Shown one piece after another: positions 42,424 to 47,221 of a DNA stretch of 64,000 bases. Position 1 is the stretch's first letter; each line of letters begins with the position of its first letter. This DNA comes from Rhodospirillales bacterium (lineage in GTDB: Bacteria; Pseudomonadota; Alphaproteobacteria; Rhodospirillales; UBA2165): the NCBI GenBank assembly GCA_012960465.1, contig DUBF01000088.1, forward strand, positions 26,943 to 90,942. The letters are read 5' to 3'. The notes beneath the pieces were generated by a model. That model was not told where the DNA came from, made no database searches, and saw only the letters and a program-made list of their open reading frames with translations. The translations under genes and the position numbers were made by a program.

Positions 42424-44031
42424 ATGGATACGAATACAGAATCAAAAATGATATATACGCACCCTGAGCTTCTTTTGGTGGCGGATACAGTGGCTCGAGA
42501 AAAGGGAATTGAAAAGGAGGAGGTCCTAGAGGCTATGGAGCAGGCAATTCAAAAAGCTGGTCGTTCCAAATACGGTCATGAGCACGATATTCGTGCTGAA
42601 ATTGACCGTAGCTCTGGAGAAATTAAATTAGCACGTTATGTTGAGGTAGTCGAAGAAGTTGAAAATGAAGTAACGCAAATTACTTTGAAATTGGCTCAAG
42701 GAACAAACGTTGACGCTACAATTGGTGAGTTTATTGTTGATCCTTTGCCTCCAATTGATTTTGGTCGTATTGCAGCTCAGACAGCTAAACAGGTTATTGT
42801 GCAAAAAGTTAGGGAGGCTGAACGTAAGCGCCAGTTTGCAGAATTCAAAGATCGTATTAGCGAAATTGTTAACGGGGTAGTTAAACGTGTTGAATTTGGT
42901 AACGTTATTGTTGATTTGGGTAATCGCGCAGAAGGTATAATCCGCCGTGACGAGTGTATTCCGCGTGAGCATTTTAATAACGGTGATCGGGTGCGATCTT
43001 ATATCTTTGACGTGAGAGAAGAACAGCGTGGCCCTCAAATTTTCTTGTCTAGAAGCCACCCACAATTTATGGCTAAATTATTTACCCAAGAGGTACCAGA
43101 AATTTATGATGGTGTGATTGAAATAAAGTCAGTTGCTCGCGATCCAGGAAGTCGCGCTAAAATAGCCGTTATATCTTCAGATAGCAGTATCGACCCAGTA
43201 GGTGCTTGTGTTGGGATGCGAGGTTCGCGGGTACAGGCGGTGGTTGCCGAATTGCAAGGTGAAAAAATTGATATTATTTCTTGGTCTGATCAGCCGGCAA
43301 ATTTTATCGTTAATGGATTAGCGCCCGCTGAGGTGACTAAAGTAGTATTGGACGAAGAACAAAATCGCATTGAAGTTGTCGTGCCTGACGAGCAGTTGAG
43401 CCTAGCAATTGGTCGTCGCGGCCAGAATGTGCGCCTAGCCTCTCAGTTGACGGGTTGGGATATTGATATACTTACAGAAGCTGAAGAATCTGATCGCCGA
43501 AATGAAGAATTTAAAACGCGTTCACAATTATTTACTGATAGTTTAGATGTTGATGAAGTGATAGCTCAATTGTTAGTGACTGAAGGATTCTCAACAATAG
43601 AAGAAGTTGCTTTTGTTCCGATTGAAGAATTATCAACAATTGAGGGGTTTGATGAGACTTTGGCATCTGAATTACATAATCGTGGTCGACAATTTTTAGA
43701 ACAGAAAGAAGTTGAACTAACAGAAGTGCGTAAAAAAGCCGGTGTAAGTGATGAAATTGCTGATATTCCCGGGTTGAGCGGTGAAATGCTTGTTGCTCTA
43801 GGTGAAAATGATATTAAATCCCTTGATGATTTAGCTGATCTCGCTAACGATGAGTTGATAGAATTTGTGGGCAAGGTTAATTTAACTGAAGAATGTGCTA
43901 ATGAAATTATTATGTTAGCGAGGGCTCACTGGTTTGAAGACGAAGTAAATTCTGATGAACCGCTTGCCGAGACGGAGGTTGTCAAGGAAATGAATTCTGA
44001 TGGTATAGAAGTGGAAAAACCAACGACATGA
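42424..44031 (+). CDS. nusA: Transcription termination/antitermination protein NusA
   Basis: 535 residues. The N-terminal RNA polymerase-binding domain (1-125) precedes S1 ([18 protein letters not shown]), KH1 ([13 protein letters not shown] and [21 protein letters not shown]) and KH2 ([21 protein letters not shown]). Two C-terminal helix-hairpin-helix AR-type modules follow (about residues 375-430 and 440-510). NusA controls pausing, termination and antitermination. It starts 31 bases after rimP. The frame after its stop is also the ylxR frame, and no usual start codon lies between. Confidence 0.97.
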
Positions 44032-44070
44032 GTTACTGGTTGTTTAAAGGTCATTAAAAGAGAGGTAAAC

Positions 44071-44667
44071 ATTATTAAGATAAATTCCCCAGATCGCAAG
44101 TGTATTTTTACGGGAGAGGAACAGCGTAAGTCTAAACTTGTGCGGTTTGTTGTGGGACCTGATAAGGTTGTTGTTCCAGATATACTAGAACGTTTGCCCG
44201 GTAGGGGTTTTTGGTTGAAAGCAAGTCGACATATTGTCTTTAATGCGTGTAAAGAAAATGTATTTTCGCGATCTGCTCGTACCTCTGTAACCGTTCCAGA
44301 AGATTTAATTGAGCTCGTTGAGAGGTTGTTGAGGCAGCACTGCCTAGATATTTTTGGTCTCGCCTGCAGAGCTGGACAAATGGTTGGAGGGTATGAAAAG
44401 GTTAGGTCAGTTTTATTGGCTGAGAATTCGGGAGTTTTGGTTTTTGCTAGTGATGGTGCAGAGGATGGGAAAAATAAAATCAGCAGACTATTACCTGACA
44501 ATCCAATTATCAATTGTTTTTCTGGTAGTGAGTTGGGTGCTGCTATTGGTATGGGAAGACTGGTTCATGCGGTTATAGCACCCGGGGGTTTTGCTGAAAA
44601 ATTATTGGGTGAAACATCAAGGTTGTTAGGATTTCAGGAAAACGATCCAATCTATAAACTAAAATAA
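44071..44667 (+). CDS. YlxR-type RNA-binding protein (DUF448 + L7Ae-like), apparent ATT start
   Basis: 198 residues if started at ATT 44071. From the nusA stop (44031) to 44139 this frame holds no ATG, GTG or TTG. The first usual start, GTG 44140, would discard the conserved DRKCIFTGEEQRKSKLVRFV, which carries the RxC...TGE motif of YlxR. AGAGAGG (44059-44065) sits five bases before ATT 44071, where a start codon is expected; ATT 44074 is next. Further markers are LPGRGFWL and an L7Ae-like half (ACRAGQMVGGYEKV). YlxR proteins bind RNA (P-domain of RNase P in Bacillus is one reported partner). Genes around it (nusA, infB) are the conserved setting. Confidence 0.85.
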   Translation: MIKINSPDRKCIFTGEEQRKSKLVRFVVGPDKVVVPDILERLPGRGFWLKASRHIVFNACKENVFSRSARTSVTVPEDLIELVERLLRQHCLDIFGLACRAGQMVGGYEKVRSVLLAENSGVLVFASDGAEDGKNKISRLLPDNPIINCFSGSELGAAIGMGRLVHAVIAPGGFAEKLLGETSRLLGFQENDPIYKLK

Positions 44668-44731: not shown

Positions 44732-47221
44732 ATGACGGATAGTATAAAAAGCAAAGAACAGACGTTGAAAAAGAAGCTCAGCCTTTCGCGGCCGGGTAAA
44801 CTTGAACTTAAAAAAACAGTTGGGGGCGGTCAGGTCCGCCAGAACTTTTCTCATGGCCGTTCAAAAGTTGTTACGGTTGAGGTTAAAAAGAAGAGAACGT
44901 TTGCACCTGGGTCATCAGGAGGTATGACTGAAGTTGTCCCAGAAGCGGCGGATAAAGCGCCCGCCGGGGTCAATGAAGTTCGACCCAAAGAAAGTGTTGT
45001 TGAAGAAAAAATTGCTGCGCCAATAGCCTCCCATAATTTAACTGATCGTGAACGGGCTACCCGGGCTCATGCCCTTCACGAGGCCCATAAAGGCGTGGAC
45101 CAGCACGATAATCAGCCAATATTAGAAGAGCCGCCTAAAATAAAAGAAAAGCCCAAACAAAAAGACATTTCAGAATTTGAACAATCTCGGCAAGCAGCTA
45201 TTGATCTGGAAGCGGCGGAGGCAGCGGCGGCAAAATCTAATCAGGACAAGGTTATTATCAAAGATGATGATGATGGAGAGAAAAAGAAAACAACAGCCCC
45301 AAAACGACCATCTCCTTCGCCTCGGCAGGGTCAGCGACGTAGTCAGGGAAAGCTGACAATTGCTGCGGCTTTAGATGATTCTGAGCGCCAACGTTCTCTG
45401 GCGTCCGTTAAACGGCAACGCGCCCGCCAGAAGCGTAAAGAAGGGCCGATTGAGCACGTTAAAATTGTTCGTGAAGTTACTATACCTGAGACAATTTCTG
45501 TCCAAGAACTCTCTAATCGTATGGCTGCGAGGGGCGTGGATGTTATTAAAACGCTAATGAAGATTGGCGTCATAGCAAATATGAGTGAGATAATTGATGC
45601 TGATACAGCAGAGCTTGTCGTTGAAGAATTTGGTCACACAGTTAATCGGGTTAGTGATTCTGACATTGAAATTGGGTTGGGAGGGCAAGCAGATAGAGAA
45701 GAGGATCTTTTTCCAAGGTCTCCAGTTGTAACAGTTATGGGTCATGTTGACCATGGCAAAACTTCTTTATTGGATGTGATGCGTAAGACTAATATTGTTT
45801 CGCGAGAAGCCGGCGGTATTACACAACATATTGGAGCGTATCAAACAATAACGGATGGTGGTGAAAAGATCACATTTATTGATACACCTGGACATGAGGC
45901 TTTTACTGCTATGCGCGCTCGAGGTGCAGGGGTGACGGACATCATTATACTCGTTGTTGCTGCCGATGATGGAATTATGCCGCAAACTGTTGAAGCCATC
46001 AATCACGCAAAATCTTCTGGAGCACCAATAATTGTTGCTATTAATAAAATTGATAAACCTGATGCTGATCCAAATCGGGTGCGCACTCAACTATTGGAGC
46101 ATGAATTGGTTATGGAAGTCATGGGTGGTGATGTATTAGATGTTGAAGTGTCCGCAATCGAAGGTACAAATATAGATAAGCTGGAAGAAGCGATCGGTCT
46201 TCAGGCGGAACTTCTTGACTTAAAATCTAACCCAAACCGTGCCGCGGAGGGTGTGGTTATTGAGTCGCGTATTGAGCAAGGGCGAGGTGTGGTAGCGACT
46301 GTTCTTGTGCAGCGCGGCACTTTAGAAATTGGCGATATTTTCGTCGCTGGTTCTGAATCGGGGCGGGTACGCGTTCTGATAAATGATCAGGGAGAAAATA
46401 TAACTAAGGCGGGTCCGTCTGTTCCTGCTGAGGTGGTTGGTTTTGCTGGTGCTCCCGGCGCTGGCGATAAATTCTTTGTTGTTGAAAGTGAGGCGCGCGC
46501 GCGCGAGGTTGCAGAATTTCGAAGTAATAAAAATAGGGGTGCAAAATCAATTGCTGGAAAGCGGGGCACTCTAGAAGAAATGTTTGAATCTATCAAAGCT
46601 GGTGAAATTAAAGAATTACCAGTTGTCATAAAAGCGGACGCTCAAGGTTCAGTTGAGGCCATCATTGGTATGTTTGAAAACCTACCGCAAGATGAGGTTC
46701 AGGTGCAGGTTCTGCACAAAGGTGTTGGAGGTATAAACGAATCTGATATTACCCTTGCGGGAGCGTCTAGCGCGGCAGTTTTTGGTTTTAATGTAAGAGC
46801 TAACCCTCAGGCAAGAGATTTAGCTCGTCAAGATGGAGTTGATATAAGATATTATTCTGTAATTTATGATGTCATTGATGATATCAAAAAACTTCTTGTT
46901 GGGATGATGGCTCCAATTGTCCGGGAAACTTTCTTAGGTAATGCCGAAGTTCGCGATGTTTTTAATGTATCTAAAATTGGCAAGGTTGCTGGTTGTTTTA
47001 TCACCGCTGGTGAAGTAAGACGAGGGGCTGGTGTACGTCTGTTGAGAGATGATGTTGTGATTCATCAAGGGAGCTTATCAACTCTAAAACGTTTTAAGGA
47101 TGATGTTAACGAAGTAAAAGAAGCACACGAGTGTGGTATGTCTTTTGAAAATTATAACGATCTCAAAGTTGGTGATGTTATTGAGTGTTTTGATATAGTA
47201 GAGGAAATCCCAGAAATATAG
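44732..47221 (+). CDS. infB: Translation initiation factor IF-2
   Basis: 829 residues. The N-terminal 290 residues are charged, low-complexity, with a leading IF2 subdomain ([20 protein letters not shown]) and a later IF2-N fold ([20 protein letters not shown]). The G domain has [12 protein letters not shown] (G1), [10 protein letters not shown] (G2), [15 protein letters not shown] (G3) and [10 protein letters not shown] (G4). C-terminal domains II-IV follow, with [20 protein letters not shown] near the end. IF-2 brings initiator tRNA to the 30S subunit. It follows the YlxR gene by 64 bases. Confidence 0.97.

Follow-up and report, generated by a model that had tools for sequence, protein, structure and literature searches.

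A predicted near-cognate start codon of ylxR, conserved in one alphaproteobacterial genus and recurring in other lineages

Where does the translation of ylxR begin when its reading frame offers no ATG, GTG or TTG ahead of the conserved N-terminus? The question is raised by the window, a stretch of 64,000 nucleotides from a marine Rhodospirillales bacterium (contig DUBF01000088.1, positions 26,943 to 90,942), in which a ylxR-ylxQ fusion gene lies in the operon position between nusA and infB (Table 1). To our knowledge, conserved non-canonical starts have been described for only a handful of bacterial genes. Almost every annotation pipeline we know of presumes ATG, GTG or TTG, and in these genomes ylxR has therefore probably been called too short or overlooked. 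The best reading of the data, to which a probability of about 0.75 is given, is that the YlxR-YlxQ fusion is translated from a near-cognate non-AUG codon placed by a Shine-Dalgarno (SD) sequence, through weak initiation discriminated by IF3.

Table 1. Features around the ylxR start, in coordinates of the window.
Feature	Coordinates	Strand	Remarks
nusA	42424..44031	+	535 aa; TIGR01953 NusA, 432.7 bits
Nine-codon ORF, ATG AGT TAC ... TAA	44028..44057	+	Overlaps nusA stop (ATGA); outside the ylxR frame
AGAGAGG, likely Shine-Dalgarno	44059..44065	+	5 nt upstream of ATT 44071; duplex -9.2 kcal/mol; GAGG(T) kept in congeners
ATT, most likely ylxR start codon	44071..44073	+	Gap-free alignment with CTG of congeners L002 and L004
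ylxR-ylxQ fusion gene, PRK09190 type	44071..44667	+	198 codons plus stop; NF006622 and PF04296 matches
Second ATT, alternative start	44074..44076	+	GAGG-to-codon distance 8 nt, equal to the congener GAGG-CTG spacing
GTG, first canonical start codon of the ylxR frame	44140..44142	+	Internal Val of LVRF motif; rejected as start
infB (IF-2), control gene	44732..47221	+	ATG start; TIGR00487, 768.5 bits

The start region in the window species and the encoded protein

In the window, nusA and ylxR share one frame, and the nusA stop codon (TGA, 44029-44031) bounds the ylxR frame on its upstream side. From 44032 this frame reads VTGCLKVIKREVNIIKINSPDRKCIFTGEEQRKSKL and, as the preliminary description had stated, contains no ATG, GTG or TTG up to 44139. 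The placement it gave for AGAGAGG relative to the first ATT was also borne out. The predicted SD duplex is much stronger upstream of 44071 than upstream of the GTG (-9.2 versus -3.3 kcal/mol), both energies assuming the standard anti-SD sequence because the genome of the window species yielded no 16S rRNA gene. Since 5.5% of random 22-mers pair as well as the SD of 44071, the motif by itself is modest evidence. ATT is the likely start codon in this species, and of the two adjacent ATT triplets the one at 44071 is favoured over that at 44074 by its ungapped alignment to the congener CTG. Folding of the RNA over 44015-44115 was no better than that of shuffled sequences (z 0.37), and masking of the start by RNA structure in this segment was rejected. 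The nine-codon ORF on the nusA stop, ATGAGTTACTGGTTGTTTAAAGGTCATTAA, is not conserved in the congeners.

The product carries an N-terminal YlxR/RnpM domain and a C-terminal L7Ae-like (YlxQ) domain, and its residues 6-192 matched the fusion family NF006622 (PRK09190) with 202.6 bits, above the cut-off of 184. With a start at ATT 44071, the YlxR domain (PF04296) is complete, with 66.1 bits over model positions 1-74 of 75 from protein residue 9, whereas a start at GTG 44140 gave 42.9 bits over positions 16-74, with the first 15 model positions lost. The warning that a call at this GTG would delete the YlxR motif was therefore justified. That N-terminal motif, RKCIFSGE, is conserved throughout the class; the Pfam model covers it, and it also occurs in a relative of known structure (1g2r). 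The score with the RnpM model NF047356 was 45.5 bits against a cut-off of 80; the fusion is a different equivalog from stand-alone RnpM, and RNase P modulation is attributed to it here by analogy and not by membership.

Start codons in the genus and across the Alphaproteobacteria

The ylxR gene was recovered from seven of the nine genomes of the genus. None of the closest congeners, represented by four separate assemblies (L002-L005, 65-68% identical), has a canonical ylxR start. Their leader reads TTGAGGT followed by CTG ACG CGA AA, with 8 nt from GAGG to CTG, and between the CTG and the core there is a single indel, of 12 nt and in phase. Counting back from PDRKC, the CTG of L002 and L004 lands on ATT 44071 with zero gaps. 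An ATG at this position in relatives, together with ATG in the raw reads here, had been named as an outcome that would speak against a non-canonical start; of this check, the sequence half gave CTG instead in the four closest congeners. This CTG is invariant in L002-L005; at identical residues, synonymous codons agree only 54-69% pairwise. Among 19 conserved Leu columns, 12 contain TTG or TTA at least once and six are codon-invariant, the start CTG being one of the latter. The invariance is supportive of a functional start, but not decisive by itself. A canonical start is only one base step (ATG or TTG) away from CTG. The distance from the nusA stop to the start is 39 nt in the window and 36, 38, 27 and 28 nt in L002-L005, and its phase is not kept.

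A near-cognate start with its SD thus appears to be conserved as CTG plus GAGG in the four congeners, while in clade B (L026, L028) the start is ambiguous, since an ATG immediately before RKC accompanies AGAGAGG-5nt-CTG. In a tree of NusA and YlxR, the genus was monophyletic (support 0.995) with the window species beside L026/L028 (0.99), and L006, with a TTG-started ylxR, fell outside. From this placement, the weak start would have switched codon inside the genus (CTG, ATT), with no clear canonical reversion except possibly in L026/L028. Therefore, of the ATT start first proposed, the non-canonical character held and extends to four congeners, but ATT itself appears to be specific to the window species, the near-cognate weak start being the trait that is probably conserved.

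A census of ortholog pairs compared parts of the window genome and of two congener genomes, after removal of antisense shadow ORFs. Among the 75, 71 and 139 pairs compared, only infC and ylxR lacked a canonical start in both species, and this in every comparison. As positive control of the method, infC begins with ATC in every one of the eight genus genomes (L035-L042), and the 15 loci from other genera with a readable N-terminus have ATA or ATC, in keeping with the non-canonical infC starts documented elsewhere (PMC5472188). Since infC of the same genomes begins with ATC, the likeness to infC suggested in the preliminary description is apt. In these eight genomes, callers limited to ATG, GTG and TTG would truncate infC.

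In the wider survey, the 5' ends of ylxR were compared at 148 distinct loci of the order and the class, ten further loci having been left out because they failed the core motif. An ATG was found at 106 loci and only GTG or TTG at 25, while 17 had no canonical start, defined as none within 35 codons of the ylxR core; one of these 17 (L235), as well as L225, has an ATG 44 codons upstream, which in L225 lies within nusA in another frame. Among loci with enough flank, the start was missing in 13 of 77 for ylxR and in none of 74 for infB, with a Fisher p of 1.4e-4 that is only indicative because related species are not independent. All these counts describe a sample, taken without placing the lineages on a complete species tree.

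Outside the genus, a plausible near-cognate ylxR start is present in three lineages, in each case overlapping the nusA stop. In genus g60, four members (L108, L129, L133, L150) have a GGAGG followed by an ATA that runs into the stop as ATAG or ATAA, and other members (L140, L146) have an ATG start. The infC gene of g60 is likewise ATA-started. In genus g216, CTG overlaps the nusA TGA as CTGA in three of three genomes (L191, L195, L197), a GTG being present farther inside the gene in L197, and in the single genome L225 the CTG overlaps the stop as CTGAATAA. The recurrence of different near-cognate codons in ylxR argues for selection on initiation strength and not on sequence.

Several loci (L009/L106, L023, L189 and L213) have neither a canonical start nor a clear near-cognate solution, so not every case is explained, and some of these may be assembly errors (Ns near L023) or frameshifts. 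In L009 and L106, both of genus g43, AGAGGAATG follows directly on the nusA stop in a frame other than that of ylxR, suggestive of a frameshift or an unusual start. In L023 (G023), whose siblings have a ylxR ATG, the equivalent frame carries a stop with Ns nearby, possibly an assembly error or a broken gene.

Alternative readings and possible mechanism

A sequencing or assembly error could mimic a missing start, either by altering an ATG or by a false frameshift that conceals one, and in a single draft genome of 245 contigs a one-base change from ATG to ATT is conceivable. This is very improbable here, since the four closest congeners also lack ATG, GTG and TTG and share another codon, CTG, at the aligned site, three of them being present in both collections under different record names, and since independent lineages likewise have no canonical ylxR start. 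The GTG at 44140 would be the true start if the upstream similarity were a mere relic, and L002-L005 do have GTG at the equivalent site; however, this agreement is expected because the Val belongs to the conserved LVRF motif. The absence of an SD, the loss of 23 bits and of YlxR model positions 1-15, and the class-wide conservation of RKCIFSGE upstream make this start improbable, and it was rejected. A conserved programmed frameshift leading from ATG 44028 into the ylxR frame could make use of the nine-codon ORF opened on the nusA stop, and AGGAATG stands out of frame ahead of ylxR in L009/L106. Nevertheless, the mini-ORF has no counterpart in the congeners and inspection by eye revealed no slippery sequence, so the proposal is hardly credible and was discarded.

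More weight is given to two readings in which the identity of the codon matters little. Translation of ylxR might have no independent start and depend on nusA, through read-through or through coupled termination and reinitiation, as the common frame of both genes in the window, L002 and L004 would permit. Read-through is rejected because in L003 and L005 the nusA stop, 38 and 28 nt ahead of the start, is in a frame other than that of ylxR, so that no fusion is possible. Coupling finds its best ground outside the genus, where starts placed on the nusA stop (ATAG, ATAA, CTGA and the L225 overlap) have the classic re-initiation geometry, but within the genus there is a gap of 27-39 nt and a separate SD, and infB, in the same operon, retains ATG in 74 of 74 loci. 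As a full account, dependence on nusA is therefore doubtful; coupling and a weak start can coexist. Alternatively, ylxR may be required in such small amounts that the quality of its start is weakly selected and drifts, with no regulation involved. The variation of the codon among species (ATT, CTG, ATA) and the canonical starts of relatives (L140 and L146 in g60, TTG in L006) fit this idea, which is rather unlikely yet deserves serious consideration. Against it, CTG was kept in four diverged species although ATG or TTG is a single base away, good SDs were kept, and the recurrence in ylxR, shared with no other compared ortholog but infC, suggests gene-specific selection. On this evidence, selection for low output and selection for a response to IF3 cannot be told apart.

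The preferred reading remains a weak near-cognate start. Initiation would take place at AUU 44071, with 44074 as second choice, and at CUG in the closest congeners, the ribosome being placed by the upstream GAGG(U). We infer that the near-cognate codon is used with fMet-tRNA. The resulting 30S initiation complex would be unstable and rejected by IF3, so that the level of YlxR-YlxQ would stay far below that of its operon partners NusA and IF2; whenever IF3 became scarce relative to ribosomes, synthesis would rise, as for infC. Natural AUU and AUA starts of Staphylococcus aureus (cvfC1, ccpN, citZ) give about 10% of the AUG yield in poor medium (PMC13009471), in Escherichia coli CUG supports less stable initiation complexes than AUG, GUG and UUG do (PMC11497404), and the GTC-started sigR is repressed by IF3 (PMC5472188). 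Based on these precedents, low expression of ylxR relative to NusA and IF2, sensitive to IF3, is to be expected. Discrimination by IF3 against codons of this kind is well established in other bacteria; for ylxR, the predicted sensitivity might act as a switch, as the preliminary description hinted, or accompany a constantly low output. The missing canonical start, its conservation in the genus, the SD and the recurrence in other lineages, all of them visible in the sequences, suggest that the output is held low or tied to IF3. In lineages whose ylxR start lies on the nusA stop, a contribution of translational coupling is probable, and there coupling, not IF3, may be the main determinant.

By homology, the protein is predicted to bind RNA and to modulate RNase P, with an L7Ae-like domain attached, and a low level of YlxR may be useful through such modulation. 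A wider proposal, which is tentative and at present unlikely, would make ylxR a second target of IF3 discrimination, evolved repeatedly in Alphaproteobacteria as CUG, AUU or AUA replaced its canonical start. Synthesis of YlxR-YlxQ would then follow the ratio of IF3 to ribosomes and link initiation capacity with RNA processing from the nusA-infB operon.

Significance and comparison with known systems

From the sequence comparisons, ylxR appears to have a conserved near-cognate start in the genus and to have evolved such starts recurrently in several other alphaproteobacterial lineages, and it would thereby join infC, pcnB, sigR and ccpN in the small group of genes that keep a non-canonical start. 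If confirmed, it would add to infC a second gene with a conserved non-AUG start in these genomes, located within the NusA/IF2 operon, and IF3 control of a non-self gene in Alphaproteobacteria would become testable. No report of a non-AUG ylxR start was found in the literature searched, an incomplete search on the ylxR start codon and on non-canonical starts in Alphaproteobacteria.

The closest parallel is infC, which has a near-cognate start (AUU, AUC or AUA) with an SD, present as ATC in the same genomes, in a gene of the translation apparatus with predicted IF3 discrimination. In contrast to infC, which autoregulates, ylxR would be a downstream target. In E. coli, according to the citation of Binns and Masters 2002 in PMC13009471, pcnB also acts in RNA metabolism and has its expression limited by a weak AUU start, but it encodes poly(A) polymerase I, an unrelated protein, in another operon, and its start was tested experimentally while that of ylxR is deduced from sequence. 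Streptomyces sigR resembles ylxR in its non-canonical start (GTC), which sets the stoichiometry relative to a neighbour gene and is usually misannotated; the codon and the gene are different, and its repression by IF3 was shown with infC mutants and overexpression (PMC5472188). The S. aureus genes cvfC1 (AUU) and ccpN (AUA) likewise are regulator genes with conserved non-canonical starts and SDs (PMC13009471), but with extended SDs and Ribo-Ret data, compared with a moderate GAGGU and sequence evidence for ylxR. Finally, YlxR/RnpM of Bacillus subtilis, a protein that binds the RNA of RNase P and modulates its activity (PMC11898665), shares the domain family and the operon place downstream of nusA, whereas the alphaproteobacterial protein is fused to a YlxQ/L7Ae-like domain (PRK09190), probably has a non-AUG start and is assigned its function by analogy.
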